Part shown: positions 7,801-60,812 of the stretch, one piece after another
Position numbering within the stretch: position 1 is the stretch's first letter
Layout: each line of letters begins with the position of its first letter
Assembly: GCA_013368325.1 (NCBI GenBank)
Contig: JAACJK010000063.1
Location: 248,001 to 312,000, forward strand
Direction of reading: 5' to 3'
Source of the DNA: Ephemerocybe angulata
Lineage: Eukaryota > Basidiomycota > Agaricomycetes > Agaricales > Psathyrellaceae
DNA: 64,000 nt
The notes under the pieces: generated by a model
The model's database searches: none
What the model was told of the DNA's origin: nothing
Seen by the model: the letters and a program-made list of their open reading frames with translations, nothing else
Made by a program: the position numbers and the translations under genes

Positions 7801-8572
7801 CAATGTTGTCGAGCCACGTCGGTAGATCCGCATGGTCCTGTGGCGCCAGCTCGAGGGCTTTCCGAACTTTGGCAATAGATTCGTCAATGTCCTTGAGATC
7901 TCCTGTATGCCCGAATCGAGCCCTAAATGATCCTCCGAGACTGTGAAGTCGATTCGGAAGTTCTGGGTCACCTTCTGGAGTTAGGTCCACAGCCTTCAGC
8001 ATAGATGGGATGGCTTCGGAGACGTCTGTGAGATCCCCAGTGGCCTCAAAGCGGGAGAGTAACGCCAATCCGAGGTTGTGAAGCCGAGTTGGCAGACGTC
8101 TATCGCCCACGGGGGTGCGCTGTATGCATCGCTGCGCGTATAATATGGACTCCGAGACGTCCGAGAGGTTTCCAGTGCGTTGAAAGCGAAGGTTGAACGA
8201 GTACTGGAGATTGTTTAGCACAGATGTCATCGTTTCATCGCTGTGAGAAGGTAGTTGTGCTGCTCTCATCCCAACTGAAATGGCTTCATCCAGGCTCGAG
8301 AGACGACCGGCGTGCTCAAAAAGCATATAGAGAGAATCTGCGAGGATTCCCAGCCACCATTGTAGGTATGGGTCTTCAACTTCCGAAGTGAGTTGCACTC
8401 CCCTCCGAAATGCTTCGATTGCTTGTTCAATATCTGTAACGGCGCGGGTATCCATAAATCGGCTTCTACAGGCCTGACCGTCTTTCGCCAGACGGGTGAG
8501 AACATCTGTAGTTATCCAATTAATACCGTCCCCAAACGCCCGAAACACGCCACCTACCTTTGAGATCGTCAC
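4834..8572 (-). CDS. TPR-CHAT protein (caspase-like peptidase)
   Basis: Two exons on the minus strand, 5741-8572 and 4834-5682, split by a 58-bp intron; 1,226 residues. Residues 1 to about 550 are repeats of about 45 residues of the type LP-x-L-x-x-LG-x-x-x-x-RF-x-x-TGDL-x-DL-x-EAI, the TPR-like array common in Agaricomycetes. The C-terminal part is a CHAT domain (clan CD, related to caspases and separase): IWWCPTGPLSFLPIHAAGLY, the catalytic-His motif VHLACHA (His about 1081) and the catalytic-Cys motif LSACQT (Cys about 1122). Both dyad residues are present, so it may be active. CHAT-TPR proteins occur in bacterial and fungal immunity or regulated-death modules; a role here is inference. 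The intron was placed because removing it joins ...LNIS to KNNCSSPATILPR in frame. Confidence 0.9.
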
Positions 8573-29832: not shown

Positions 29833-29928
29833 TAGACCGGTAACCGGTCGGTCACGTTTTCAACGTCTATGACGGTTACAAACCGGTCGATAGACCGACC
29901 GGGACGTGTCGGAAGAATTTGGCAGGGC
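29833..29928 (+). repeat. Left TIR of element 1
   Basis: Starts TAGACCGGTAACCGGTCGGT and contains an inner GGTCGATAGACCGACCGG that restates the TAGACC terminus. Matches the reverse complement of 38080-38181 with small indels. Confidence 0.9.
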
Positions 29929-30048
29929 TGACAAGGTAATTAATGAAAAATAATTGAAAACTAATTCTCCTACTGCATTAGGCAGGTATAGAATAGGCAC
30001 GTGTAGCCAAATGTCACGGGCTCTCCGGCCTGGGGCCAGATTGGTCGT

Positions 30049-31035
30049 GTGCGCAATGCGATTGGAACACGGCGTCCCGTTCAGGCTAGCTCGGGAACAT
30101 TGCCTCCGCACATCAAGAAAATCGTCAAGACGAGTCTCAATCTCACTGAGGAGAGGCTTGTGACCATCGACCTCCCTAGCAACCGTCCCGGTACCCTCTA
30201 CGCTATGCATGAAATCGTCGGCTCTCGTGCCGATGCAAGGAATCTCAAGTTTGTCATCAGTCCAAACGGAGAATACGTTCAGACTCTGCTCTTCTTCGAT
30301 GATTCGAAGGAGGCGGCGTCGATGGCCGCATACATCACTTCACTTTTGCCAGAGGACAAGCAGCTACTTGGAATTGTTCGACATTACCACGGAGGCATGT
30401 CAAAGCCTTATCTCCAGGCAATTTTCGATAGCTTTGCAGATCCGACCGGCATGTGCAAGATTTTGTGTGCAACTTCCGGAGCATCAACGGTGAGTTCAAT
30501 GTATCATATACTACCATCTACGTATGCTTAATGCCATTCACAGGGCCTTGACGTTGCTGGAATTCCCCTGGTCATTCAGTACGGAATTCCTCGTGACATC
30601 TCGTCGCTCCTGCAGCGAGGAGGTCGGGCTGGGCGCAGTACGACGGCAATAGCGCTCTACATTATGATGTATGAGCCATGGGTCCTCCAAATCGACATCT
30701 CCGGCGTCTCTTCGGATATCGCATCGGACCCTGACCGGCCTATTCTTGAGCCTCTCCAGAAGAACTCGAGCAAGCAAGAACGGACGAGCTGGGAAATGTA
30801 CCACATCTTCCAACAGAAGATGTGCATACGTGCTCTATTTGCACATTATCTTGCAGATCCGCTTCCGAAAGGTGAGTCTAAGCTCATATGCCTCCTAAAA
30901 ATGCTAAAGCGCACCGATTGGCCAGCCCTAGAGACTGCAGGACCACAGTGCTGTGACCGACACCCTGACCTTACCGAAACCTCGAAGCAGGTCAATTCCG
31001 AGGCATTTTGGCTCGGGTACATAGTAGTGACCTGA
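30049..31035 (+). pseudogene. RecQ-like helicase, C-terminal fragment (element 1)
   Basis: Exons 30049-30489, 30544-30871 and 30932-31035 join in frame. They show RecA2-domain features of RecQ helicases: a TLLFFDDSKEAA segment (motif IV region), HYHGGMSKPYL, GLDVAGIPLVIQYGIP (motif V) and LLQRGGRAGR (motif VI), then a zinc-type C-terminus with CCDRHPDL. Walker A, DEAH and the rest of RecA1 are absent: the frame begins about 200 bp from the transposon end where element 2 has about 1 kb of N-terminal coding sequence. The frame then runs into a stop at 31035 where element 2 continues into its coiled-coil tail. Non-functional as a helicase. Confidence 0.8.
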
Positions 31036-33192
31036 GTTCGCGCTTTTGATGTTAGCTTTTCTGATCCTATCATCACGGCACTTGCCTTTTGTCACGAGAC
31101 CTCGGCACTTGCCGTTCATGATTGCATTCCCGCGCGCCCCTCAGTCCCACTTCAAGTATGCTCTGCGTGTATGAGTAAACGAGCTTAAGTAGCATAGAAT
31201 TGGTTGGCATTGTTCTCTAAATACTACAGACTTATTTGTATCTAATACTACTGGTACATGCAATGAGGGAAGACCGGGGCGGCGGTGAACGCGCGTGCGC
31301 AAACTCGGCGCATCATTGGACGACGCGAAGGGGGAGGTGAAGAGAACCAGGGTGCGATGGGGGCTGTTCCACAGTCCCGTTGTTGGAAGTGGTGATGAAC
31401 TCGCTCGTGTTGTTCAACACGAGCGGAGGGTATCGGGGCAGCGTGTTGGTAGAGCGATGGGGACTGGGATATTGGGCGTTGTTGGACAGCTGAATTCCCA
31501 TGGCATGGGCCCGGGGACAGCGGTGAGGGTGGTGACGGAGAGCGGCGTGAATGAACTCGCTCGCATTTCAACCACGCGAGCAAGGCCTCAGGGGTGATGG
31601 GGACGGTGGGTACGAGCACACGGCGGCCTGATGTAAGTTCCAAGATCAGTTACCCAGCAGCGCGTAAGAATACGCACCTTGTCTTCCGGCTACTCGTCCT
31701 TCACTCCTATCCTCCCCTCCATCTTCCCAAATCCCTTCCCATTCCCCCACTCCCTTTTCCAATCCATCCCGTTTAGTAGTTGCTTCCGTCGTTGGACGCG
31801 CATTGAGGCGGTGGCGAAATCATTCGCAAGTAGGGGGCGATGGCGATGGGGGCGGCGGTGGGCGCAGCGGGTGGTGGCCTAGTGCGATGGTGGCCGTGCC
31901 ATGGTGGAGGTGGTTTGGGACGAGTTTGGGAAGAAGCAAGCGCGCTCGTTGCTGAATCCTGATGCGTCACGCGCAACTCTGTGACACGTCACGAGACGTC
32001 ACGATGGAAGATTCCGCGCCAAATCCAGCATTCTTCCTTCCCCCACGACGAACCGACGTCGCGAGTTCGAAGTTGGTTCGTCCCTCTCCTCTCTGCTCAC
32101 CACCGCCGGCACCCGTAGTCGCATTAAAAGCGACGTCGGTTCTCACCCTGCCGACGCACTGAAGAGCGCTGGCACTCACCCGAAGCATCTACCCGGTAAG
32201 TACCTTTCCCCCGGTCTCTCTCTACTGACCTATGTCATAGGTCTGCCGCCAACGCGCTATCACAGCGACTCAGCGCTGGCCTCGGCGTGCCCTCGTCGCG
32301 TTGAAACGCGATGACGCCCCCGTACCAGCAGCTTGAACCAATTTTACAAAGTCATTTGCTTCGCTCGCACCCTCTATCGTCGCACTCGCTGCCTCTACCC
32401 GTAGGTGGCCCTTCCGTCGTCGTCGCATTGAATAGCGATGACGATTTCATCGCTCTCGCCCATGCCGTCGTCGCATCGAGGAGCGACGATGACTTCGGAC
32501 CCCACCGGAGTGGCCGGCTAGCGCTTCAGGTACCTTCGCGAAGGTACGCAACTCCTCCGCAACTCCTCTCCTGTACCCCGCTGCCCATATACCCTGTAGA
32601 TTCCACCGCCCGTTCCGCACTCCCATCGCCACATTGGCCACACACCCACCGTCTCATCGACGAGCCCTTCTCGCCACGCGACCGCACGCAAGACCTGGCT
32701 GGACGGTTCTTGCCCAGCCCTCCTTTCGTGATGCTCGTACGCACCCTCCCCCCAACTCTCTTTTTGAACTTATATCGTAGGTTTGCCGTCGAGACCACGC
32801 CGACAACGGTATCCGCCCATCAACTCGGAATCCCACAGCGGCGACTCGCTGTGCCCACCGTCAGCCACGAGTTCATCGTCGCCGCCCCGTCATTTTGTCA
32901 CACTTGCCACCACCGCCTGTCCCCTGCCCCCGATTTGGCGTTTCCGCCGTCGTGCCGAAACCGATGATGAATTTGTCCCTCCGCCCTCTGGATCCCATCA
33001 CCGCTCACCAGTCGTTGCACGGAAGAGCGACGGCAGCTCTCTCCTCTTCTACATAGGCAGTAGTAATAGTGTACTCCATAGTCCCTGTATTTTATACATT
33101 CAATGAAACAAGTGTTTGAACTGAATCTGATATTTGACCCTCCCCAACCTCCCCCATCCTGCTAAGCTTGGTGAGAACTGATTTGAGACAAA
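31036..33192. other. Insert-like segment between helicase fragment and coiled-coil gene
   Basis: It has no counterpart in element 2, where the two coding parts are contiguous. No convincing gene: ORFs at 31248-31643 and 32311-32967 are Pro/Ser-rich without a domain. From 32100 to 33030 there are repeated short hairpins of the type GTCGC(N)GCGAC, and two intron-like stretches (GTAAGT at about 32194 to CATAG at about 32239, and one ending ATCGTAG at about 32781). A separate insertion inside the transposon is likely; its ends were not resolved. Confidence 0.5.
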
Positions 33193-33867
33193 ATGCCTCG
33201 GACCAATGCCGCGCGAAGCGTCGGCCCACTTACACTAGGTATTGATGAACTCGTCAAAGGAAAGCTGCTGTATGTCGACCCTGCAACCGAGGTGGCCTAC
33301 TACGGTAATGTAGATGACCCAAACCGAGTGCTCCTGAACGAGAAAAAGAAGCGGTCGGCTGTCGGAAGGGTCAAGAAGCGGTTGGTTGTGGACCGCGACC
33401 CACTCGCATCTCGCTTGGTCCAGTGGCGCCGGAAAGCGTGTAAGCGCCGAGGGCCAGCACACCATCACGACTTCATCCTCAGCAACAAAAGCCTTACCCT
33501 CATTACGAATGCACACCCTCCATCCATCTCGACTGCCACGAAGCTGGCATCATTCCTTTCCGAGACTCCTGCATGGTCCTCTGAATTCGCGCAAGAAATC
33601 ATCGATGTTATTGTAAAGTATGATGCCGAGTTAAAGGAGCTCCGGAAGAACGAGGGTGGAAAGAAAAAGAAAGCAACAACCGAGCCCCCATCGAAACGAC
33701 AAAAGCGTAGCACAGTCCCAGAAGAGGTGGAAATGGGTGAGAACAATGAAGACGTGATGGAGATAGATGAAGATGATGATAGGGCAATGGAGGTAGACAA
33801 TGAGGCAACGGCTTTCACACATGATTCAACCCAGAAACATAGCAATATTGTAAATATGACAACATAG
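33193..33867 (+). CDS. Coiled-coil protein of element 1
   Basis: Intronless, 224 residues, starting MPRTNAARSV. Residues 24-45 (GKLLYVDPATEVAYYGNVDD) match GEMLYEDPKTKKRYFGDVDN in the C-terminal part of the element 2 helicase, and a later segment (SSEFAQEIIDVIVKYDAELK) matches WKAKYAKPILGVIRKFEDDV there. The second half is lysine-rich (GGKKKKATTEPPSKRQKR, a likely nuclear signal) and then very acidic. It is either a separate accessory protein of this transposon family or the detached tail of the helicase. DNA binding is a guess. Confidence 0.7.
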   Translation: MPRTNAARSVGPLTLGIDELVKGKLLYVDPATEVAYYGNVDDPNRVLLNEKKKRSAVGRVKKRLVVDRDPLASRLVQWRRKACKRRGPAHHHDFILSNKSLTLITNAHPPSISTATKLASFLSETPAWSSEFAQEIIDVIVKYDAELKELRKNEGGKKKKATTEPPSKRQKRSTVPEEVEMGENNEDVMEIDEDDDRAMEVDNEATAFTHDSTQKHSNIVNMTT

Positions 33868-33889
33868 GGTAGAGCAAAATGTACATTCA

Positions 33890-36800
33890 CTAATTGACGT
33901 TAAAGGCATCATCTTCTCCTGCCAAAACGTGCGTGTCCTCCGTCGATATTCCATTCTCCGGCAGAGCCTCCTCATCAGCTGCATCTTCATCGGGTCTCCC
34001 GTTCGACTCCTCGTCATCGTCACTGCTAAGCTCGTCGAGATCTTTGGCATCATCCATCGGAACAGCATGCTTGTAGGCCTGTACCATCGAGTAGACCTGT
34101 TGGTTGAATGTCTTGAGGGTCGAGGACTGAATCTTCGCCATTCCGACTGCCTGCGTATCAGGAATGGGGTGCTGTGTGTTGTTTCCAGGTCAGTTTGGGG
34201 GGTGGATGTGGAGCGACTCGCGGGTTATATACTTCTCGATGATATTCACCATTTGCGAAGTGTCGGGAGTGCGATGGGAACGGTTCTGGTACGAGACTCC
34301 AAGGACCTTCGCAACCTGGGACTTTGCATCTTCGATGGAGTTGATAGCAGCAGAAGCATCGCCGAGATTGTCCCAGGTATGCGCAAGACCCTTTGCAATG
34401 ATGAGTTTCTTCAGCTTCCCAATCGAGTACTCCATATTGATATCAACGGGAATAGGGCGCCCGTGAGTGTTGATGAGGGAACCATCGTGCATGATATCTC
34501 TAACCAATGGGGTCAGTCGACGGGGACTTGTATAGATGAGGTATTCACTTACGAGAACTCTTCACTCCAGACATGCTTCAGGCCCAAGGTAATCCAGAGG
34601 ATCTCGTTCGAGTAGTTCGTGCTTCCGCAACCACGGAACTTGAAGAGAAGGAATGGGTAGAGGTCCTCAACACGTCCCACATCCCCAGCTCGGATTGCCG
34701 CTAGGAACTCGTCGAGCAAGAGCAAGTCCCGGAGAAGTAGGTGGAGGTTTAGGTTGGCAATCTCTTTCGATGGATCAAGCTCGTTGGCGTCAGGGGTTGC
34801 CAGGGGCAGCGGGGTACGTTTCGGCTTGGCCTTTCCGGCACTCTCATTCTCGTTGGTCGCTGCAGGTTGGGCAGTAGACGGAGCCGACGATGATGGAGTG
34901 GTGGTAGATGGAGCCGACGACGATGCAGCGGCTGTAGGAGCAGATGCTGGCGTGCTGGTGGGTGGCGTAACTTTGAGATCATGAAGCTGTGTCGGTGTGC
35001 TCGCAGGAATTGGGGTAACGTAGTCATAGAGGATCTCTTCAGCTTTCTTATACAGCTCTTCTGGAGTTGGATTGGTTGCGGCGTAGGCTTCTAAGGTCGA
35101 TACAGTGTCCGATAAGCAGAGCTTCTTCCAGCAGGCGAGTATGGCGCCCTCGAGGATCTGAAGCAGCGCAGAGACGAGGGAATGGTAATCAGGTTTATCC
35201 CCAGCTAACCGAGCCTTTCCCATCGTTGCGAACATCACGTCAAGGCCTGCGAGCTGAGACGGGGACCCTCGGTAATGGCTCAGAGTACCCCAAGCGTCAT
35301 TGAGGCCGGTGTGGAAGAGTCCCATGGATAGTTGCGGAGGTAGGCACATCTCGTGCTGGTTGACATTGTGCGCGCGTGTTTGCTTGATAGAACGGATTCG
35401 GGAATTGGTCAACTGGTCGTTATACGATGGGACAGCAAGGTCGGCGAGCTCCTCTGGAGTACACTTGAGTTGGTTGAAGTAAACTTCATCCCGGAATGCA
35501 ATGTTGCCGCCGACGCTAGCCTCCTCAATTGTCGAAACACGAAGCGCATGCTGCTTCGTGCTTTTCGGGACTTGAGCTGTCAGTCGACGAACTCTGGGCG
35601 TGAATAGTGGCTGGCTGTTACGACCTGGATGATCTATTTATTCTTTTTCTTTCTTTTCCTTTTCCTTTCTATTTCCTCTATTTTTCATCTTTCATTTCTC
35701 TACTTTTCTATTATTTACAAGACGTGTCTCGATCACATGACACAGCACGTGCGATCACATGCACAGGTCACCTGCTACATCACGGGACCAGCACAGCATC
35801 AGTCAGCGCCTCAGTCAGCATGACATCATATGCACAGCACTTGCACAGCTCTTCGACTCATACACGGTCATTCCTTACATAGCATTCCACAGCTTCTGCA
35901 CAGTATGTACAGCCTCGTATAGCCATAGTCACGTCACGGTCACGAAGCATAGCAGTATATAACCTAGGTAGATCTCACTGTATTTCCCCAGTCTTTAGCT
36001 GGTCAATATCACGGCCTTGTCTACAAGTCTCTCGCCTCTTCTCTCTCTCTCTCTCTTCTGTCCTAAGTTAGGGTTAGCAGCGCACCAGACCGGTCGTTCG
36101 CTGACACTGGCTGGCGTAGTTGGAAAAGCCAGAAACATGATGTGTGAGGACGCGAAGGATGCGAGCAATAAAGCACTTGTTGACGGTGTCGGCGTGTTGT
36201 GGGGTAGGGCGAATGTCGCGCGCAAAGTCGAGGGCATTTGGTCCAAGCTTCAGGAAGTTGTCTTGGATAGGCTGCAGCTTCATGTGGGCCACGTTGACAT
36301 GAGGGAGGGGGTATATGATTCCAAACGTGCCCGAGGTGACCTTTGCCGGTGTTCCGAGCCCTCGTTGTTCGACGCTGATGCTGGTGCTAAGGTTGATGTT
36401 ATCGTAACCGAACATGTGTGGACCCTTCGCAACCTTGATAGATTCCTGCATGGCATGCTCTCCGAGCGTCTTCAGAATGGTGCGAATGGAGCTGTAGCTG
36501 ATGCTGAGCCCACATCGATGAAGGGCATCAATGACCTGCCGTGAGGATCCCGACAACCATGCGAAAAGCCCAAACGCAGCTGGGAATCCAAGGCAGTTAC
36601 CTGAATGCTGATAGGCCAGCTGTTTCAAGGCTACAAGGCACACCTACGACAGCTTTTCAGTCAGTAGTGGACGAGGTATGGGTAACTTGTAAAAGACATA
36701 CCCCATCCGGAAACTTGACCGTATTCTCCTTCTTTGCACGCTCCGTCTGTGCAGCCGCAATCAAGATAGACCAGGTGAAGGGGGCACGTTCCTCATGACC

Positions 36801-37929
36801 ACCGATATCGAAGTTTGCAATATACTCGGGAGTGATGGAGGCGAGACTCGATAGCTTCTCAGCACTTGTCACAGCATCCATTTCGTCGCTCACGATCTCG
36901 TTGACGAGTGCCTGGCCTTTTTTAGAGGTAAGCCATGCCCGGAGCTTCTGGCGACCACCCTTCGAGCCTGCAAGCGTGTCAAGAAGGTTCCCAATGTTCT
37001 TGAGATACTCGTTACGGGTGCCGGAATATAAGGTATCGTCCTCCTTGAAGATTCGTTGCATTACATCGAGAGGGTAGACTCGATGTTGTTCTCCCATCGT
37101 GGCGAAGAAATCAAGGATTTTCTTGTCTGCCGGCGCTGCGGACTCGAGCAGCTGGTCCTGAGACTGCGTCCGACGGATAGAGCCACGAGAAGGAGTGCCT
37201 CCCAACGGTCCACCCGAAGGAGACGCTGCCACAGACGCACTGCGACTCATTGAGCTGCGTAGAGGAGTCGGTGCGAAGGAACTGTGGGACGTGGAGTTGT
37301 GAAACGAGCCCATAGACGCCGACCGATTGAGATGAGCTGGGGTGGACGAAAAAACGTCCGGAGACGGTGGAATTGAACTCGAAGCTAGGCTAGGTACATA
37401 TCTTGAAGAAATATCAAGTTAGAAAAGTGTTTTAGAGTAAGAAAATCCACGATTACCTTGCGGACGAGGAGTCCATGAACATGTCGGCTTCAAGGCTCCC
37501 ATCCCCCATCTCAACATCTCCCGAAAGGAAGCCTGACCCCATTCCCACTCCCTGATCGTCTCCTATGCTCCCTGCTCGTTCTGATGGCCCAATAGAGGGA
37601 GATCTCGAGCCTGGCACATCGGAAGTGACAGACCCGGCTCGTGATGTTGACCTGGAAGGTCCACCGGATGGTGGTCCCGGTAGGTGTCGCTTGAGCCAGC
37701 TGGGGCTGCCAGACATGTACTGGACCTCCTCCAGGCTCTCTTGAGCTGTCCCGGGTGTAACGTAGCCCTGCATCTCGGGCCAACGGACGTTCCAACGGCT
37801 GTTCTGGGGTGGCAAATTGGGTGGTGGTGGTGGTACCGGTGCTGCAGATGAAGACACATTCGTGCTGACTGGTGGGGCTGGCTGAGACTTTATACGTTGT
37901 GTTATGAAGGTCCCTTTCTTTGGGGGCAT
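33890..37929 (-). pseudogene. DUF6589-like presumed transposase of element 1, interrupted
   Basis: Reading down the minus strand: N-terminal low-complexity region from MPPKKGTFITQR (37929); exon starting near MGSFHNSTSHSS with TPEYIANFDIGGHEERAPF; exon with VIDALHRCGLSISYSSIRTI and YDNINLSTSISVEQRG; after the insert, YNDQLTNSRIRSIKQ and DKPDYHSLVSALLQILEG; then LLLRDLLLLDEFL and FRGCGSTNYSNEIL; and C-terminal exons ending GEDDAFNVN. These segments align in order with the 48604-51731 gene. The region between the HHVSGFSNYASQCQ and SQPLFTPRVRRL segments is broken by the 464-bp LTR-like insertion at 35616-36079. DUF6589 proteins are abundant in basidiomycetes; the transposase role is inferred from position inside TIRs. 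Confidence 0.75.
35616..36079. mobile_element. Solo-LTR-like insertion in the DUF6589 gene
   Basis: Starts TGTTACGACC and ends GGTTAGCA (TG...CA termini). It contains a promoter-like core, GCAGTATATAACCTAGG at about 35951, followed by a CT-rich end typical of fungal LTRs. 464 bp, absent from the homologous gene in element 2. I could not see a clear 5-bp target duplication (CTGGC against GCGCA), so the exact ends are uncertain. Confidence 0.55.
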
Positions 37930-38079
37930 GGTGGCTGAGGAGAGAGAACAAAGAGGTCGTCGAACACGAGGAGCACACGATGCAAAGCGTTCAGGGGCCT
38001 TGGGCCGAAAATGGACGCAACGTGATTTATTCCACGCCGCACGTGCTATGCTATGCCTACCATATTGGGAAGGTATGGG

Positions 38080-38181
38080 CCGCCCCGCCAAATTAATCCG
38101 AGGCATCCAGGTCGGTCTATCGACCGGCTTGCAGCCATCATAGACGTTATCCTGTAACGTGACCGACCTGTCACAGGTCTA
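38080..38181 (-). repeat. Right TIR of element 1
   Basis: The reverse complement starts TAGACCTGTGACAGGTCGGT and shares the GGTCGATAGACCGACC block with the left TIR. Confidence 0.9.
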
Positions 38182-40732: not shown

Positions 40733-41743
40733 TCAAACAACATATCCCTGTCAAACAATCAGCAAAACATCCGCACCCGCCCAAAACGCAGACAAACGAC
40801 TCACCCCATCAACCCGAATATTCTGCCCATTCACCCAATGCCCCGCCTCACTGACAAGAAACGCCACAATAGGCGCCACATCATCCGGCTCCCCCAGCCT
40901 CCTGCTGGGTGTCTGCTTCGCTATCCCGTCTATCACATGCTGGGACTTGCCTTCGCGGAAGAGGGGCGTGTCGATGGGGCCGGGGGAGATGGTGTTGACC
41001 GTTATACCGCGCGCGCCGAGGTCCTTTGCGAGGACGCGGCTGATTTGTTCGACGGCGCCTTTGGTTGCGAGGTAGCAGAGGGCGTTGGGGAGGACGGCTG
41101 CGGCGCGGTAGGTGACGTTAGATTAGGGAAGAAGAGAGAAGAGGAAGTCTTACTAGACGCCGCCGTCAAACTATTCGAGAACAACACGATCCTACCCCCC
41201 GGACTCGGCATAACCTCCGCCGCCCTCTTACACATAAACAGCGGCACCTTCACATTCGTCTCAAAATGCGCATCGAAAAACGCCTCATCCACCTCGCCCA
41301 AGCTCCTACTCCCCATCACACCTGCATTCAGCACTAGAATATCTATCCTGCCGAACGTTTTGATAGCCTCGTCGAGGAGGAATAAGCCGCCTTCGACTGT
41401 GGATGTGTTGGCTTTGACGGCGATGGCGCCGCCCTTTCCTTGCGAGCGGATGGCGAGGACGACGGCGTCGGCGGCGGCGCTGTCCGTTACGTAGTTGACG
41501 ACGACGGAGGCGCCGTGTTCACCAAGGCAGCGGGCGACGGCGGCGCCGGTGGAGCGGGAGGATCCTGTTACGACGGCGACTTTGCCTGAGAGGAAGACGT
41601 TGGCGATATACGATGAGTTGGGGTGGGGTGGACGTACCAAGAAGAGAGGTCGTGGGGAGGAACGTGGACGAGCCGGCGAAGCTCTTGGAGTAGGGACCCT
41701 GCGTCGGGACCTCGAGCTTACTCGAGGGCTTCAACGCGTTCAT
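40733..41743 (-). CDS. Short-chain dehydrogenase/reductase, complete copy (SDR1)
   Basis: Four exons: 41638-41743, 41154-41585, 40805-41097 and 40733-40747; 281 residues in one frame. Classical SDR features: VAVVTGSSRSTGAAVA at the cofactor site, NAGVMG, FSNSLTAAST before the active site, CYLATKGAV (the YxxxK dyad), NTISPGPIDTP, and the C-terminus GQNIRVDGGYVV completed by a 15-nt last exon. The cofactor motif departs from the usual TGxxxGxG because the middle Gly is Ser (RST instead of RGI), which may weaken NAD(P)H binding. The family reduces carbonyl or acyl substrates in the cytosol; the substrate is unknown. It supplies the uninserted reference for the element 2 target (40896-40904). Confidence 0.87.
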
Positions 41744-45470: not shown

Positions 45471-47835
45471 ATGCGTGTCTCCATCCTCTCCATCTTCTCC
45501 CTCACCCTCGCACTTGCGAACTTCGTCTCCGCTCATTCGGATGTACATGAATCTCCTCCTCTTTCTATAACTATACCACTCACAACTTCGCACCTGCTAG
45601 GACACCCTTAACGCCAGAGAATACGTCGACGATCTGAGCGTCCGCGAAACCAGCGCCGACGTCCTGGCCGACATCTCCACCCGAGACCTCATTAGCGAGC
45701 TCTCAGACCGTCTGGAGCGCCGTGGGGGCGAGCTCCTAAAGTGTCCCCACTGCCCCAGGCAGTTCGTCAACCCTAACAACGTACGCCCCCATTCTCTTCA
45801 TCTACATTACCCATTGCACCCTCTGACTTGCTTCATCTGTTATTTGTTGTTGCAGCTTGCGGCCCACATTGGTGAAGAGCACTCTGGGCAAACCAATCAA
45901 CGCAGACCCTCCACAGGCCGCAAGCCTAAGGCAGGGCGCCGTTGAAGCTCGCAATTGTATGTACCACGGCCCGACGGCAGAGGAGTTGGACGCCGCCGAA
46001 CTAATCAGAGGACCGCAACCTTTTGACACATTTCGGCCCCCTTCCCAAGTATCACTTTTTATTTATACTAGTTATAGACTGCCCATACCAAATCACTGCT
46101 TTATCTCTTGAGGTGCCACCCTGCTTGGACTCGCCCAAGTCTCGTCGCCCAATTCATCCCCCAGCAGTCAGACCCAACCGGTTAGCATTGTAAGCGCAGC
46201 TACAATGCCAGCGCCCAAACATAGTCTTCCTGGGACATCCATCCATACTCTAAGTATACGCACGCCAGCCACCCTCGTCCTTGTGGTACCATGGCCATCC
46301 CATGACTACGCGGCGCTCTCCAACTCCCTCGGAGACACCTGCTTTAGCGCCCAAAGCCCGAGCGCACCGAATGCCCCGAACCGCCGATCCGCCGATCCGG
46401 CGACGGCCCTCGGCAGGGAGACGAGTCCCGAAGTTCCGGCGACGCACCTGGCGCTGATGGTGACATGACATGCTTTCTTTCCGTGACACCCATGTCCGTC
46501 CTCGCGCACTAGTACCCTCTGGAGTCTGGCAGTGGCATGCCGCCTGCGCCTGGATCCTGCGCTATGACACTGCAGCCTCGAGGATGGGACCTCCGCCGAC
46601 GTAGATCAGGCGCGGCGCATGGATATCTGACTGCGAAACGCGACATGCAAGTTGGCGCCGATTCTGCTTCCAAGGTCCCTTATCCCTTGGTCTACTATAT
46701 CTTTTTTGTCCTCAATCGATGGATGGATGGGTGGGTGGATGGATGGATGCGCTCTAGGCTAGGATACCGTAAAACATGAGCCTGTAGCGTATTTCCTTCC
46801 CTCTCCTCCCTCTCCTTCCCACTCCTCCCTCTCCTTCCCTCTCCTCCCTCTCCTTCTCTCTCCTTCCCTCTCCTTCCCTCTCCCCTCGCTCCTGCCCTTT
46901 ATCGTCCCGCCCTCCCTACTCTTCGTACCCACCGAATCCGAGTGAACACTTCCAGAATACGAACATCATCCAGATCACGAACACTACACAGCGCACGTTG
47001 AAGACCGCGCAGACTATTCGTGCCAATGAAACGGGGGATGGAGAAGCCTCGCGTCGGTAGCCTCGCGTCGGTAGCCTCGCAACGGCCACGTTCACCCCGT
47101 CGTTAGCGCGTCCGGCTTCCCGTTCGAGAGTTGAACGTTGAGGGTTCTGCGGATCCGAGGGGGTATCACAGCACGCGCGGGGAGAAACTCAGGAAGGTGC
47201 GGTGCACGTCTTCATTTTGATTTATTCATTCCTCGAAATTGACTTCTCTTTAAATTACCCCATTTCTCCAGGACTTTCGAAGACTGACTGCACGATGAAT
47301 GTCGTTTTTCCAATCCTTGGACGTGCACATAAGGGCTTTGATACACGCCATGCCTGCTACACGATCATGGGTGAACAAGCCAAAGGGGGGAGGCGGGTGG
47401 TTCAGAGTGCGCAGTAGATGGACGTTCTGTGGTGTAAGAACGAAGGCGTGCCCACGGCTTCGTGGAAATCTGCCATCGCACTGTCAGTCACTTTTAGGCA
47501 AGGAGGGCTTCGCAATGTGCGCCGCCGCGGGAAGGAGAAGGGAAGGACTCGAAGATCGACGGGCGTCGTTGGTACGTAAAGAGGGCGCCACGAGGGGTTG
47601 GCCGACGGTTCGTAGAGGATGTTTGGCCGGGCTTTGTACGCTTTCTTTGGATCGGGGTGGACGGCGGGGAGTTTTGGCTTCGATGCCTTCCTTTTGGCTC
47701 AGCTTCCTGACCCTTGTCTCTCTACCTCTGCCTTTGCCTCTCTATTCCTTTTGCTCCTCCCCGCTTTGACGCCCCTGCTCCGCTCGCTCGAACTTCGCCT
47801 GGCATACCCTTTTCGACACCTGCCTGTTTACCTTG
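42830..47835 (+). repeat. Segmental duplication unit 2 (Z2 block)
   Basis: Aligns in the same orientation, with substitutions and indels, to about 57525-63610 (Z4 block). Landmarks: TTTAGCATTCCGCAGG, GGGTTCGATCCTCGCCTGTG, the Z gene, AGTTCCGG-rich 3' flank, a GGAT microsatellite (46720-46750 against 62595-62622), GGGGGTATCACAGCACGCGC and GGTTGGCCGACGGTTCGTAG. Confidence 0.85.
45471..45945 (+). CDS. Z2: small secreted protein with C2H2-like zinc finger
   Basis: Exons 45471-45542, 45601-45780 and 45856-45945; 113 residues. Signal peptide MRVSILSIFSLTLALANFVS, then DTLNAREYVDDLSVRETS, DISTRDLISELSDRLERR, CPHCPRQFVNPNN, and LAAHIGEEHSGQTNQRR with a longer basic tail than Z1. The finger spacing Cys-x2-Cys-x12-His-x4-His is kept. 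A TATAAG box lies 86-91 bp upstream. Its promoter shows a single copy of the site at which element 1 is inserted upstream of Z1. Function unknown. Confidence 0.87.
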
Positions 47836-47844
47836 TACGCTCCC
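45946..47844. other. 3' flank of Z2 up to the broken dehydrogenase
   Basis: Duplicated in the Z4 block. Contains a GGAT-type microsatellite at 46720-46750 and a polypyrimidine run (CTCCCTCTCCTTCC type) at about 46795-46890. ORFs such as 47299-47769 lack domains and their counterpart near 63100-63560 is not conserved as an ORF. Confidence 0.55.
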
Positions 47845-48423
47845 GCTGCCGACGCCGTCGTCCTCGCCATCCGCTCGCAAGGCAAAGGCGGCGCCATCGC
47901 CGTCAAAGCCAACACATCCACAATCGAAGGTGGGCTCTTCCTCCTCGACGAAGGTATCAAAACATTCGGGAGGATAGATATATTGGTGTTGAATGCGGGT
48001 GTAATGGGGAGTAGGAGCTTGGGCGAGGTGGACGAGGCGTTTTTTGATGCGCATTTTGAGACGAATGTGAAGGTGCCGATGTTTATGTGTAAGAGAGCGG
48101 CGGAGGTTATGCCGAGTCCGGGCGGTAGGATTGTGTTGTTTTCGAATAGTTTGACGGCGGCGTCCAGTGAGTCTATCGCTACTCCGCTCTTTCTCTCCTT
48201 CCCTAACCTCCCATCACCTACCGCGCCTAGCCGTCCTCCCCAACGCCCTCTGCTACCTCGCAACCAAAGGCGCAGTCGAACAAATCAGCCGCGTCCTCGC
48301 AAAGGACCTCGGCAGCCGCGGCATCACAGTCAACACCATCTCCCCTGGCCCCATCGACACGCCCCTCTTCCGCGAAGGCAAGTCTCAGCATGTGATAGAT
48401 GGGATAGCGAAGCAGACGCCCAG

Positions 48424-48432
48424 CAGGAGGCT
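48424..48432. repeat. 9-bp target-site duplication, left of element 2
   Basis: CAGGAGGCT, repeated at 54752-54760. Present once at the aligned position in SDR1 (40896-40904, minus strand). Confidence 0.97.
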
Positions 48433-48558
48433 TAGACCGGTGACCGGCCTGTCACATGTATGAAACCCTGCGGGTTGTCGATAGACAGACCGGCACGGCT
48501 GGGTTTGAATTCCCGTATGGATTTTTTGATGGCACCAGTTACCCTTTTGGGCCTAATC
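48433..48558 (+). repeat. Left TIR of element 2
   Basis: Begins TAGACCGGTGACCGGCCTGT. The first about 23 bases follow the same pattern as element 1 (TAGACC.GT.AC.GG.C.GTCAC), and the inner GTCGATAGACAGACCGG block is also shared. Confidence 0.93.
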
Positions 48559-48603
48559 CAAGCCCCTGCCAAACCGTCCTTGACCTCTTCCTCGTCGTCT
48601 ACG

Positions 48604-51600
48604 ATGTCGAACGCTGCCCAAAACCCAGCAAAACCGGTAAAGAAACGCAATAAAAAGCAGCCCCTACCATATGAGCAGAAATTGGACTTCACCGTAGCAC
48701 CGACAGTGCCGGTAACCGCACCAGAGGCCCAGTCTGCCAACCCCGCATCGAGTTCGGGCATCGCAGGCCCCTCAATTGCTTCGGGACCTGGAACGGGTAC
48801 GCAGGTGTATACGAAGGGTGGTACTCGCATGGATCTTGGACCTGCTGAGGCTCCCGTGGGTCCAGCGCCGACTGCAGTATCTGCAGATACAACGAGGTAC
48901 GTCTTCGTTTACATCCCCGGTTGTTTGCATTTTTTCTGAGCCTAGGGATATAGCACCACACAGGGTGTGTCTGGGGCTGCACCAGTACCTACAGCACCCC
49001 CCGTAGCATCCTCTTCGAAACCTAGAATGTCTTCTGCCCAAAGAATAGAGTCTATTGTCGATGGCATCCGCGAAACACCCGGGATTGGCCCGTTCAACGT
49101 CTTCGAAGCCATCGTGGACGGCCGTAACTCTCAGTATAGCCAATTCCGTGACCAACTCTACGCCCCAGGGAATACTAAGCTGTCCGAGATTCTTTCCTTG
49201 GTACATTCGGATCCACGGGGGCGCCTAAAGCTGCAGGAATGGATTACGAGCTCCACTGGCCGTGACATTGTATCTGGCATTATCTCGGATGAGATGGACG
49301 TCTTGCGGGACGACCAGAAGTTGACTGGGGTTGCCGATATCACCCCAGAATACATTCGGAATCGTACTCCCCTCGATATTGAGTCCATGGCTCCCTTCAT
49401 GACGGAGATGGTGGTGTGTGCAGCCCAGACCGAGCGAGCGACGGCCAAGAACGTCAAGAAAAAGCCAGATCAGGTATGTGGCTACTCAATATTGCAAGCG
49501 CGCTAGTTGCTGAGTACCACTTTAGCTTTCCCGTGTCGTCATGAGGCAGTTGTTGTACCAGCGTTCAAACCGTGCCCTTGGCTTTGCGACGGAATTCGGT
49601 CTCTTCCTATGGGGCTGCGGTTGCTCTAAGAACACAATTGAGGCATTACATCGATGCGGCCTCTCAATCTCGTACACGGCCGTAGGTACAGCTCTGGAGA
49701 AGCTCTCGGACCACTGCATTCAGGTTGCAATCGGCATCGCAGCGGGACCGCACGCGTTCTGCTATGACAACATCAATATATCAACCTCGATTTTCGTTGA
49801 ACAGCGCGGCGGCTCAACTCCATCCAAGGTCACTTCTGGAACCCTCGGAATGGTTTACCGCTTGAAGAACGCCACCATGGCCGACATGGAGTTGGCGCCA
49901 ATTCTCGAGCGAATGCACAGCCCCAACTATAACATGGGCCTCAATTTCTATACCGACCTCGTACCGACCGATCAGCAAGCGACCGACTTCGTGCGTCAGC
50001 TGAAGGTCAACATAATCAGTGTTCTTCTTCGGTACGTCAAGGGCTTTGAAAAGCGCGCGTCCGACACGACACTCCAGAGCAAGCCTATCCGAAAGCTTCC
50101 ACCAGACCACATTGCCGAATTCCAGCTCCTGCGGGTCTCAACAACCGAGGAGGCGACCATCAAGGGTAATCTGCAGTTCCAGGAAGAGATGTATCTGGAT
50201 CAATTAGGCCGCACCGCAGAAGAACTCAGTAAATACGCCATCCCGACCATCAACGACCAATTGACAAACTCGAGAATTCGCTCGGGCCAGATTCTACGTG
50301 CCCCTGACATCAACGATTGGAATCGACGATTGGTATTCCAAACAGCGCCGGGTATGTTCCATTTCGGGATGAACTTGGAGTGGGGTATCTACGACAATCA
50401 TCGTGGAAGCATCAGCCTGAGGGCCTCGCTTGCATATTGGATTGCCTTCCTTGCCATAGTCCGACTCGCTTCCGACAAACCAGACTATCACACCCTCTTA
50501 GCAGCACTCCGACATATCCTTGAAGGCCACATTCTCAATGCGTGGAGACTCGTCATCGCCAGCGAAGCTGACAACGCCGATGCTGCGGCTGCGGCTGCAG
50601 CTGAGGCCGCCGGCCCAGAAGATCCAGCAAAGCCAAGACCGAAGCCAGTCAAGGCACCAAGGACACTCAGCGCCTACGCGAAATCGAAGCCAACGACGGA
50701 GGATCTCTTTAAAAAAGCGGAGCTCATTCTGGACAACTATGCGACACCTCTACCACAGCCCTTCTCAGTTCCCGAAACATCCAGCGATGACGAGGGCGAC
50801 CCTGTTTACGCACCAGAGCCAACGCCTTGGACGGACCCTGATCCGGCTGAGGATATAGTCCATCAGAATACCTGACTCCTGACGCGCGACCTTCTCTATT
50901 TCTTCGAGCTCATTGATGCGGTGAAGGACGGTGACTGGGGCAGGATTGAGAACTTCCTCCCTCAGCTTACAATGATGTTTCGAGGGTGTGGGGGAAACAA
51001 CTACTGCACGGAGAGTCTCTTCCTAATCCAAAACTTGAAGTATATTTGGCCTCCCAAATTCGCGTGAGTCACTACTTAAAGTTGTCAGTAATTATGAGCA
51101 TGTTGCTGATCATTTATTCAGGGATGTGATGCGTGATACACTGCTCGTGAATGTGTCTGGAATACCCGGCCATTGCATGGCTGCAGACCTGAACATGGAG
51201 CATAGTATCAAGGAGGTTAAGGTATGTTTATTCAACGATCATCTTCGTCAGCGGCTCCCAAATGCTAATCCGGAACTTATTTAGGATACTATTGTACTAA
51301 AAGGCCTCGAGACGACCTGGGACACAATGCAGAAGGCATCAGCTTGCATCAATGAAGTGAAAGAAATTAAGAGGAAGGTTGCCGCAACCATGAATCTCCC
51401 ATATCAGAAGAAGACTCACAGCGACGTTGACACAAGTCCGCTGGTCTGGCGCGTCGCAGATAAGCTAATGGAGGAAGGGTTCCAAACCTTCACGCCAAAC
51501 AGGGAGGGAAACACCAAAGCCAAACCGGTTGTGGATATCATTGAAGAAGGCTCGAAGAAAGTCAAGGCATCGATCAAGACCTTCAACAAGAAATTCCAGA

Positions 51601-51731
51601 GCTTCATCGGTGGGTATAACTTTGTGCCGGACGACGAGGATGCTCAAGAATTGACGGACACTTTGGCTACGAACGAGATTGTTGTTGGGGAAGACGTAGT
51701 GCTTGACGAAGAAACCAACATGAGTATGTAG
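48604..51731 (+). CDS. DUF6589-like presumed transposase of element 2 (one in-frame stop)
   Basis: Exons 48604-48896, 48954-49473, 49526-51063, 51122-51221 and 51285-51731. Start at MSNAAQNPAKPVKK; an in-frame ATG at 48460 inside the TIR is possible. Order of segments: Pro/Ser/Ala-rich basic N-terminus; ITPEYIRNRTPLDIESMAPF; RQLLYQRSNRALGFATEFGL; EALHRCGLSISYTAV; CYDNINISTSIFVEQRGG (Asp codon 49766); YAIPTINDQLTNSRIRSGQ; GMFHFGMNLEWGIYDNHRGS; DKPDYHTLLAALRHILEG. I recognise this as the DUF6589 family. A TGA at 50873-50875 falls between DIVHQNT and LLTRDLLYFFEL; both sides are conserved with element 1, so it is a nonsense mutation unless read through or spliced out. Likely nuclear, acting on the TIRs. 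Confidence 0.8.
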
Positions 51732-51746
51732 CACAGTAGCACTAAT

Positions 51747-54559
51747 TCAATAGGGTGTTGCATCTGTAATATGACGACGTGCGCCTAACATCTTCCGTAC
51801 TTCATCAAATGAGAGCACACCATCCCGAACCTGCTGAAGTAGCTCTTGAGCTTTCGCAGCTGCAACTTCAGAGGGAGGCTCCGCAGCTATGGATGACGAT
51901 GATGCGGCGGCATTGTTTCCTGAATCCGCCGGTTTTGCTAGTCTTGCAGAGCGCCGTGGGCCAGCGGTAGGAGCGGGACAGAGTTGGGCCAATGCATTTT
52001 CTCGAGCAGCTCGCTCCATCTCCTCAGAGGCCTTTTCAAACGACTGCTTCGCCTCCTCAATCTTCCTCCGCTTCAAGCGCTCTTCCTCTTCCACCTTGGC
52101 ATCCTGCTTCAGCTGCTTCACATCGTCTTCAAACTTCCGGATAACACCGAGAATCGGTTTCGCATATTTCGCTTTCCATGAGGCTGGTAAATCCAATGCC
52201 TCTGCGAGCTCGTCTTCCGATGTGAGGTGATCTTCTAATGTTAGCATTGACAGTCGCTGGATACACTCTTTGGGGAGTATCGATGATGCAAGGATCGCAC
52301 CGCGGATAGGACTGGCCTTCCATGCGTCAAACCGCCACTTCTCGAGTGCGTGAACAAGTGCTGGGCGGTACCCGGTCGGTCGGTACTTCGGTCTTGCGCG
52401 CTTCAGACTCTCAGGTGCAACCGTAGGCTTAGTGACTATCTCATTTTTGCGGGGGTTGTCGACATCGCCGAAGTAGCGCTTTTTTGTTTTTGGATCTTCG
52501 TACAGCATTTCGCCTGGGAAGAAGCTGCCGAAACGGAAGCCATTTCCTGGGTGACGGTCACAGCAAAATCTGCCTGTAAAGCGCAACGCTACAATTGAAA
52601 CAATGACTCAGGAATTAGCACAAAGCCAGGGTGCGAAAGGGTCTCCAAATTAAAGTGTACCGTCGTCAGTCGTATCACCGTTCGCCTCCGCAAAGGTCTC
52701 GCGAAGGCATTTGTCCGACTGAAGAATTTTGGCCATTCCGATACCGACGCGCTGCTCCTTCTTCGATCTATCATTCAAATCACCGCTATGCGGCTGGTCG
52801 GGGTCGTCGGAGCTCCATATGTTCTCTCCGAAAGGTCTCAAGTTAATCTTCTCCACGAACTTCTCAGTCTGGAGAAGGAAGATACATTCCGACACTCCAT
52901 CACGTCCAGCGCGGCCAGCCCGCTGCAGCATCACAGGTACTTCGTTGGTGACGCCGTACTGGACAACGTACGCAACGTCCTTGACATCGATTCCCTGGTA
53001 CGTATAAGTAAGAGTGATAAGAATTACACAATGATTATCGTGCAACTCGTTACGATGAGTGACCTTGGGAAAAGAAATGACCAGACTTGGGTTTGAACCA
53101 AGGACCTGTCCAATCTAGGGGAACGCTCTAACCACTGAGCTATCCGGTCTTGTAAACCCAGAGTGCTAATTGGTGTTAGACCCAATTAAGTCGTAGACTG
53201 CTGTGAGCTCCTGCTGTGTAAGCAGTGTAGCGTAGCTTGTCTGTATGACTGAAGGTTGATTTGTAAAGCGGGTTACGTAATCTTCCAACAAAGAGTGATT
53301 AGCTCTTTAAATGGCATATGATACTCACAACGGCCGCAATCTCGGTTGCGTGGAGCTGGCGACAAGTTCCTTTCGGATCACGAAAGTCTTCGAGAACGGA
53401 CACGAGATACGGTTTCGACATCCCAGCATGGAACGGCCGAATTATTCCTTTGCCTTGCAGATCCGTAGGTAAGCGCTTATCAAGGAAGTTAGCAGCAGCG
53501 GTGCATCGCTCGATGCTCTCGTGAAAAATCACTCCTTTCTTCAAGTCTTCCAAGCAGAAGTCAGGCGGCCAGACGCTAGTCATGGGAAGTGTGTACACCA
53601 GGTTAGAGAAGTCGTCAAGTGAGCCAACGATGCTGTGAGTTGCCGAACAGATATTGGGCCGGTTACTGGTAATCTTGATGCAGTGAAGACGAGTTTCCTC
53701 GAAGAGTAAGTGTTCCCGGATAGTCTTTTTGATATGCGGCGGCTGTGTTCCCGAGAGCGACTGAAATCGAACATGTTTCGAGAGTTTGAGGCGGAATGGG
53801 CCCAGGTTACCCCAGGCCGGGCGAAACGCGGGTCTTCCATGTCGCTTTATGCCGGCCAAGTGAATAAAATGGGCCTCGTCGACATGAACAAGCCGGATAT
53901 GCTTCGAAAACTTTTTGTTGTTGATTATGCGCGCCAGACGAGAGAAATGGCCTTGGTGCATCGAGAGCTGCTCGGGTTGAACGATCAGAACCGTGTATTT
54001 GAGAGCCCAGACATCCTGTAGACAGTAGAACGTTGAAGTTTTGACTCGGTTCAGAGCTGCAGATATGCCAAACCTGCCAAACTTTCGGATCCTTCGAGGT
54101 ATCTTCATTGACTGCGAATGCACGGACGCCGAAGCGAGCAAGCTCCTTCACTTGCCCTTCCTGGACCGTCTTGAGAGGAGAAACAATGATAGAGAGACCT
54201 CCAGAGAGCAGAGCAGGTAGAATCATGCAGATAGTCTTCCCAGAGCCCGTTCCAGCGTCCACTTCCGAGTCCTTTCCAGAGAGCAGTGCGAGCGCCGAAT
54301 CCAGCTGAAATTCCTTCGGAGAGATTCTTCCATCCGTAGCCGTGTGTAGAGCCAAGCATAGTTTCATTCCAAGTGCCAATAGTCTGCTGTTATGCTTCGT
54401 CCAGTAGCCATCCGGTAGTCGTCGGTCGGCTGGGATTCGTGTTCGGTATGCGGCTTCAATATCTTCCATTTTGGTGAGTTTCGAGACGTCTATGGGCAAA
54501 GAAACATCCATAGAAGTGTCCTCTGGCGTATCGACCTGCATTTCCGCTGCTGAATCCAT
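51747..54559 (-). CDS. RecQ-like helicase with coiled-coil tail (element 2)
   Basis: Exons 54074-54559, 53329-54015, 52661-52994 and 51747-52588 join in one frame; 782 residues. RecA1: FQLDSALALLSGKDS, Walker A DAGTGSGKT, IVSPLKTVQEGQV, VHVDEAHF (DEAH box), SLSGTQPP. RecA2: GVIFHESIERCTAAANFL, FHAGMSKPYL, GIDVKDVAYVVQYGV, MLQRAGRAGR. A zinc-type part follows (KCLRETFAEAN... GRFCCDRHPG; His replaces the fourth Cys usual in RecQ). The last roughly 280 residues are an extension: GEMLYEDPKTKKRYFGDVDN, a long charged coiled coil (about 51980-52140) and SARLAKPADSG. Start at MDSAAEMQVD, 192 bp from the transposon end. It probably unwinds transposon DNA or intermediates during transposition. Intron 2 carries a 272-bp insertion. 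Confidence 0.88.
53010..53018. repeat. 9-bp duplication flanking the intron insertion (left)
   Basis: AAGAGTGAT, repeated at 53291-53299. Removing one copy and the insert leaves an intron of about 53 bp, the same size as the 54-bp intron at this position in element 1 (30490-30543). Confidence 0.85.
53019..53290 (-). mobile_element. 272-bp insertion with tRNA-like core in helicase intron (SINE- or MITE-like)
   Basis: Flanked by exact 9-bp duplications and absent from the homologous intron of element 1. On the minus strand it starts TGTTGGAAGATTACG and ends GTGTAATTCTT. It has a tRNA-like block in its middle with intact A-box (TAGCTCAGTGG) and B-box (GGTTCAAACCC) sequences. The ends show a weak inverted similarity (AAGATTACGTAA against AAGAATTACACAA). 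Either a tRNA-derived SINE or a MITE that carried a tRNA-like sequence. Confidence 0.75.
53079..53149 (-). pseudogene. tRNA-like sequence
   Basis: 71 nt. The 7-bp acceptor stem (GACCGGA / TCTGGTC, one G-T), D-arm GCTC...GAGC and T-arm CTTGG-TTCAAAC-CCAAG are good. The anticodon arm does not close properly: stems have mismatches and no loop places a normal U33 and purine 37. No anticodon can be assigned, so I call it a tRNA-derived or pseudo-tRNA sequence. Confidence 0.65.
53291..53299. repeat. 9-bp duplication flanking the intron insertion (right)
   Basis: AAGAGTGAT, matching 53010-53018. Confidence 0.85.
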
Positions 54560-54625
54560 GAAAAGAGGTGTAATTGAGAGGGCCGCAGCCCTCGACGATG
54601 GTACAGTACAAGAACAGGGGCCTTC

Positions 54626-54751
54626 GATTAGGCCCAAAAGGGTAACCCGCGCCATCAAAAAATCCACCCCGGAATTCAAACCCAGCCGTGCTGGTCTGTC
54701 TAACGACAACCCGCAGGGTTTCTTACACGTGACAGGCCAGTTACTGGTCTA
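54626..54751 (-). repeat. Right TIR of element 2
   Basis: The reverse complement begins TAGACCAGTAACTGGCCTGT. Pairs with 48433-48558 at roughly 85-90 percent by eye. Confidence 0.93.
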
Positions 54752-54760
54752 CAGGAGGCT
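54752..54760. repeat. 9-bp target-site duplication, right of element 2
   Basis: CAGGAGGCT, matching 48424-48432. Confidence 0.97.
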
Positions 54761-60500: not shown

Positions 60501-60812
60501 GTGCGAGACCACGATTTAGAACATCAATATTCCGTCCTCGTACGTAGCGCCTGTACGGCGTGTGTAAAAGCACCTCAACGCGACTACGGAGTGTTTACTT
60601 ACTGTAGTACTCCGATTAGCATCGCAAAACGACTTCTCTAAACCCTTTTTGCCACATCGTCACAGTTGAGATACAGTTACGATTCAGATGGACTGGTCTG
60701 AACGTGACCGGTTTTCCAAAATTTATAAGAGCGCCGCCTTAGGGTTGTAGAATAATCATTCCCTCTCACTTTCAAACCTACCAACCAATACCATCTCAAG
60801 TCAACCTCTGAA
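57511..60812. other. Region between Z3 and Z4
   Basis: Start of duplication unit 4: matches the region upstream of Z2 (42,830 onward), and further on the inverted region upstream of Z1. Contains a short CA repeat at about 57788-57802. No supported gene. Confidence 0.6.

Follow-up and report, generated by a model that had tools for sequence, protein, structure and literature searches.

A DUF6589- and helicase-encoding DNA transposon in Ephemerocybe angulata, most likely of AcademH type

The window analyzed here, a 64,000-nucleotide stretch of the agaric Ephemerocybe angulata (Psathyrellaceae; C77:248001-312000 of a 58.7-Mb assembly), contains at 48433-54751 a 6.3-kb transposon with terminal inverted repeats (TIRs), which carries a gene for a DUF6589 protein and a gene for a RecQ-like helicase. 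We hold it very probable that this is a DNA transposon in which the DUF6589 protein, acting as a DDE transposase, would cut the TAGACC ends and insert them into target DNA with a 9-bp stagger, aided by the helicase, AcademH being its most likely affiliation. The element is a real transposon and most likely a new AcademH-type member, placed there by the length of its target-site duplication (TSD) and by its helicase as described for AcademH. New here are the link of DUF6589 to helicase-encoding elements, the predicted HRDC-like domain of the helicase tail, the dyad at the termini and the pairing of the two genes across the genome.

Element ends, target site and sibling copies

Both ends of the element begin with TAGACC, and 122 of 137 columns are identical in a gapped alignment of the two TIR arms, which are bordered on either side by the same 9-bp direct repeat, CAGGAGGCT. 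The models of the DUF6589 and helicase genes occupy 48604-54559; the genes are convergent, and 15 bp separate their stop codons. An earlier reading made from the letters of the window (the sequence-only reading) had claimed TIRs starting with TAGACC, a 9-bp duplication and convergent genes with stops 15 bp apart, all of which are borne out by the arms, the flanks and the gene models. It had not noticed the in-frame TGA of the DUF6589 gene, the dehydrogenase gene hit by the insertion and its empty paralog, the other family member at 29833-38181 or the tRNA-derived repeat within the helicase gene.

48424..48432, no strand: left TSD copy, CAGGAGGCT, identical in sequence to 54752-54760
48433..48566, plus strand: left TIR, beginning TAGACC, 134 nt, 89% complementary to 54618-54751
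54618..54751, minus strand: right TIR, from its complementarity to the left arm
54752..54760, no strand: right TSD copy, from its sequence identity with the left copy
47833..48432, plus strand: upstream part of the interrupted short-chain dehydrogenase (SDR) gene, adh_short E = 2.9e-10
40800..41000, minus strand: paralogous empty site, with CAGGAGGCT once, at 40896-40904; the joined flanks align
48435..48449, no strand: left terminal interrupted palindrome, positions 3-17 of the end, with one mismatched pair in this copy
54735..54749, no strand: right terminal interrupted palindrome, from the end comparison
29833..38181, no strand: second family member, 8349 bp, TSD ACCGATCAG, from end pairing and 9-bp flanks
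60516..60720, minus strand: paralogous empty site of the second element, its target differing at 4 of 9 positions

The insertion target was an SDR gene, a paralog of which lies in inverted orientation at 40.4-41.5 kb, with 90% and 73% identity to the two flanks of the element. When the flanks are joined with a single copy of the target retained, they match this paralog across the junction without a gap there, so that the window contains the element's own empty site. Such sites are supplied by paralogous segments within the window (28.7-47.7 kb versus 54.7-63.5 kb, 65-90% identity), those of 54.7-63.5 kb being inverted relative to 28.7-41.5 kb and direct relative to 43-47.7 kb. The second element at 29833-38181 also has an empty site, which aligns with an 8-bp gap close to the junction. 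Its helicase match begins downstream of the part with Walker A and DEAH, and this element is therefore likely to be non-autonomous; about 2 kb separate its two helicase-like frames.

A search of the genome with the first 25 bases of the element gave 18 exact matches and 22 with up to three mismatches, against one for the backward pattern used as a control. Paired with one another, 16 of these 22 matches delimit eight elements, which range from 119 bp to 13.9 kb and include the one at 48433-54751 and the second element of the window. Identical 9-bp flanks were found in all eight (10-bp flanks in none); a search for further TAGACC-type TIRs with 9-bp duplications had been proposed by the sequence-only reading. 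The other six matches, in C11, C125, C134, C47 and C115 (two), are unpaired. With five more distant copies added, among them the relative at C130:176370-182376 (TSD ACATTTGAC), 12 of the 13 pairs whose ends were located have a TSD of 9 bp. This count leaves out C86, C121, C117:1067k, C185, C107, C197, C207, C146 and C77:202k/219k, C86 and C121 because the flanks of their weak inverted repeats do not match. A further DUF6589 lineage is represented by eight copies with 99.8-100% identity over 3.8 kb, which suggests that it spread recently (L024-L031, in C47, C55, C117:1451k, C118, C139, C145, C184 and C192); in the two copies whose ends were retrieved, these begin with TAGTCT and the TSDs are 9 bp long (C117, ACCCTCGTC; C139, CCTTGCAAC).

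The first 17 bases of the ends contain an interrupted palindrome, GACCNGT-R-ACN'GGTC, in which the pair formed by positions 7 and 13 covaries, being G-C in nine, T-A in seven, A-T in two and unpaired in three of 21 ends. In a test on the 10 distinct ends among these 21, one of 500 shuffles reached the observed percentage of paired cells, one the number of cells with changes on both sides and one the covariation score, but 30 reached the number of pairs with changes on both sides and 176 that of further pair types; a slid control scored the same for covariation, though far fewer of its cells were paired. The test thus lends modest support to palindromic termini that appear to be partly covarying, and the terminal dyad could possibly serve as a dimer site or form a hairpin.

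The DUF6589 protein as a predicted transposase

48604..51731, plus strand: DUF6589 gene, predicted DDE transposase (splice model from frames and GT-AG junctions; PF20231, E = 2.7e-41)
50873..50875, plus strand: in-frame TGA within the DUF6589 domain (the profile continues in frame after the TGA; homologue alignment)

The inferred splice model of the DUF6589 gene has five exons (48604-48896, 48954-49473, 49526-51063, 51122-51221 and 51285-51731). The profile search and the structure prediction that the sequence-only reading had suggested gave, respectively, the PF20231 match listed above and an RNase-H-like model with a conserved D-D-E, for which the top 18 rows of a VIA-align comparison are all DDE recombinases, with modest scores. 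Weighing against this reading, Foldseek returned no significant match for the model. The DUF6589 profile matched none of the PDB sequences, and the protein matched no other transposase family in Pfam. The protein is predicted on the strength of its modeled fold and D-D-E to be a DDE transposase, and the role as transposase that the sequence-only reading had assigned to it is supported as likely. The model shares with the transposases of the P element, hAT Hermes and ISCth4 a DDE core in which a helical insertion precedes the last acidic residue; it differs from them in having no sequence match, and the TSD here is 9 bp, whereas that of P and hAT is 8 bp. At the third catalytic position, the DUF6589 loci in C86, C121 and C117:1067k have KYAD instead of NYxxE.

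In the copy at 48433-54751 itself, the DUF6589 gene is broken. The frame that opens at 49541 stops at the TGA at 50873-50875, with profile positions 6-265 before it and 270-331 after it in the same frame, and the corresponding column of the homologue alignment holds a residue in 15 of 18 sequences and a gap in three. The resumption of the profile in frame and the residue in 15 of 18 homologues show that the TGA is a nonsense codon in this copy, which is therefore probably non-autonomous and would depend on other copies. An intron spanning the TGA is disfavored, as the residues on either side align to homologues without a gap.

Throughout the genome, 90 exon-level profile matches to DUF6589 were found, and the DUF6589 matches and the helicase matches were merged into 42 loci each. 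A helicase lies within 6 kb of 31 of the 42 DUF6589 loci and on the opposite strand in all 31, a raw count in which many loci are near-identical copies and the independent cases are fewer. As scored, 23 pairs are convergent and eight divergent; one of the latter, in C86, had been matched to a tandem neighbor and is convergent with its own partner. The 11 DUF6589 loci with no nearby helicase, together with the non-significant Foldseek result, would suit a host or passenger gene that is mobilized by the helicase or by another copy. We consider this very improbable, since the two gene models fill 48604-54559, the DUF6589 model is DDE-like and 31 of 42 loci are paired with a helicase, and since a RecQ helicase has, to our knowledge, no strand-transfer core.

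Beyond E. angulata, four of 36 basidiomycete helicase matches (P0123-P0161, with 13 distant matches, P0162-P0174, excluded) lie on a contig equal in length to that of a listed DUF6589 match of the same species and are putatively linked to it on this basis, in Lactarius quietus (twice), Mycena vulgaris and Mycena haematopus. Two protein searches gave at least 189 and at least 118 DUF6589 homologues at E ≤ 0.001, and none of the named matches listed (the best 120 of the 189, and those of the second search) is non-fungal by a word-based screen of limited reach. Among IMG/VR viral contigs, 36 pattern matches to DUF6589 yielded no confirmed case. The literature search found no paper naming DUF6589 and a single, unrelated paper naming PF20231. 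The large, uncharacterized DUF6589 family gains a likely role, that of the transposase of helicase-encoding elements, and if DUF6589 is the predicted transposase, many mushroom genes annotated as 'hypothetical' would be re-annotated.

The RecQ-like helicase and its tail

51747..54559, minus strand: RecQ-like helicase gene, 782-aa model, introns 54073-54016, 53328-52995 and 52660-52589
52119..52370, minus strand: HRDC-like domain predicted within the tail of the helicase
51981..52184, minus strand: predicted long helix resembling a coiled coil (135-202 of the tail exon), which overlaps the HRDC-like domain at that domain's end
53019..53290, minus strand: tRNA-Ser-derived repeat within the second intron of the helicase gene, with ATCACTCTT on its flanks and tRNA-Ser(AGA) at 53078-53149

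The helicase frame is open across its four modeled exons and has a deposited counterpart in the same species (D9611_011743, 762 aa, 98% identical). The sequence-only reading was correct in stating that Walker A (GTGSGKT), DEAH and RAGRAGR are kept. Pfam finds DEAD and Helicase_C, and the best PDB matches are RecQ, BLM, RECQ1 and RECQ5 (E = 1.6e-17 and weaker), which confirms the RecQ-like nature of the protein, with a RecQ-type SF2 core; the RecQ model TIGR00614 matches with E = 7.8e-35, under that model's cut-off. The RecQ zinc-binding family PF16124 appears below threshold in three of nine homologues (E = 0.012-0.24).

HRDC domains are present in many, though not all, RecQ helicases, and the tail of this helicase is predicted to contain an HRDC-like domain ahead of a coiled coil. 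The suggestion of the sequence-only reading that the tail may be undescribed has accordingly lost support, a common RecQ part being predicted ahead of the coiled coil; an undescribed domain is disfavored, though the Pfam HRDC model gave no match to the helicase. In common with RecQ helicases such as E. coli RecQ and BLM, the protein has the helicase core, possible zinc-binding cysteines and a predicted HRDC-like domain on the C-terminal side, whereas the score under the RecQ family cut-off, the extra long predicted helix and an RRSxRL motif near the C-terminus set it apart. This short motif (window 51939-51956, minus strand) recurs in five of the 16 homologues shown.

The 272-bp repeat in intron 2 is probably a short interspersed nuclear element (SINE) and has copies of 94-99% identity at six other places, in C117, C134 (two side by side), C207 (two side by side) and C67.

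Classification and proposed mechanism

The AcademH lineage of Academ reportedly goes back to Kojima in 2020. AcademH is characterized by TSDs of 9 or 10 bp and an encoded helicase (PMC10045372), with DEAD and Helicase_C domains, and by its occurrence in Basidiomycota (PMC10799480), all of which it has in common with the present element. Exactly 9 bp are duplicated in 12 of the 13 located pairs; this and the RecQ-like helicase agree with the first two features, and the proposal of the sequence-only reading that the element is AcademH-type or closely related is consistent with these sources on both counts.

Two other placements were weighed. In the first, the element would belong to a DDE lineage of its own at the superfamily level, unrelated to Academ, and would have gained its RecQ helicase independently. 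This is in line with the failure of the DUF6589 protein to match any other Pfam transposase family and with the absence of DUF6589 from the papers searched. We regard it as rather unlikely, because both the length of the TSD and the kind of helicase match AcademH (PMC10045372, PMC10799480), which makes an independent origin less economical.

The second placement is a KolobokH element, a type restricted to fungi in which a RecQ helicase accompanies a Kolobok DDE transposase. The target duplication of Kolobok is TTAA, whereas the TSD here is 9 bp in 12 of 13 pairs and contains TTAA in none of these 12. The conserved GLFH motif of the DUF6589 consensus does not clearly show a C/DxxH signature. 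According to PMC9587614, a RecQ helicase is encoded by KolobokH, for which only fungal hosts are known, and one red-algal Kolobok has its RecQ helicase on the complementary strand; KolobokH and the present element are alike in being fungal and in carrying a RecQ helicase next to a DDE transposase, here a predicted one. However, the same paper places the KolobokH helicase downstream of the transposase domain, whereas here it is a separate gene on the opposite strand at all 31 paired loci. KolobokH, to which we attach hardly any credence, is ruled out by TSD and gene layout.

For the AcademH-type element, the following course of transposition may be proposed. The DUF6589 protein would recognize the ends, perhaps binding the terminal dyad as a dimer, then cut at TAGACC and join the cut ends to target DNA with a 9-bp stagger, while the RecQ-like helicase would likely open the DNA at the ends or in the gaps left after joining. 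DUF6589 would perform the chemistry, and the helicase would melt the ends or the post-joining gaps rather than act elsewhere. PMC10045372 distinguishes the two Academ lineages by TSDs of 9-10 bp versus 3-4 bp, a difference seemingly related to whether a helicase or a nuclease is encoded; this fits, without proving, a role of the helicase in end processing. A more far-reaching proposal, which we find doubtful, is that DUF6589 founds a helicase-dependent DDE class with CCNGT-R-ACN'GG ends maintained by paired changes, in which a dimer would read the dyad or extrude it as a hairpin and melting by RecQ-HRDC, allowing cleavage of both strands, would be obligatory for cut-and-paste. If DUF6589 is taken as the predicted transposase, the reason for the presence of a RecQ helicase in some DNA transposons would also become testable, with defined ends, a defined TSD and recent near-identical copies.

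Some further copies and a neighboring gene deserve mention. The C154 element, of another lineage, has the TSD TCGCCGCCT; the copy at C151:420769-426613 (L019, L051) is identical to it along 5845 bp, but the sequences flanking this copy do not match, possibly through recombination or an assembly effect. The relative at C18:77192-91122 (L058, L059, L066, L034, L005 and L003) is enlarged to 13.9 kb and likely harbors a nested insertion, because frames inside it, around 80.9-82.5 kb, give matches to Plavaka transposase (PF18759, E = 1.2e-28 and 1.5e-17). At C86:810885-822218 (L014, L047, L048), the DUF6589/helicase unit is tandemly duplicated with a period of 4282 bp. Within the window, neighboring frames at 4834-8572 on the minus strand contain a CHAT domain (E = 3.2e-33) as well as numerous tetratricopeptide repeats and jointly resemble a TPR-CHAT protein.
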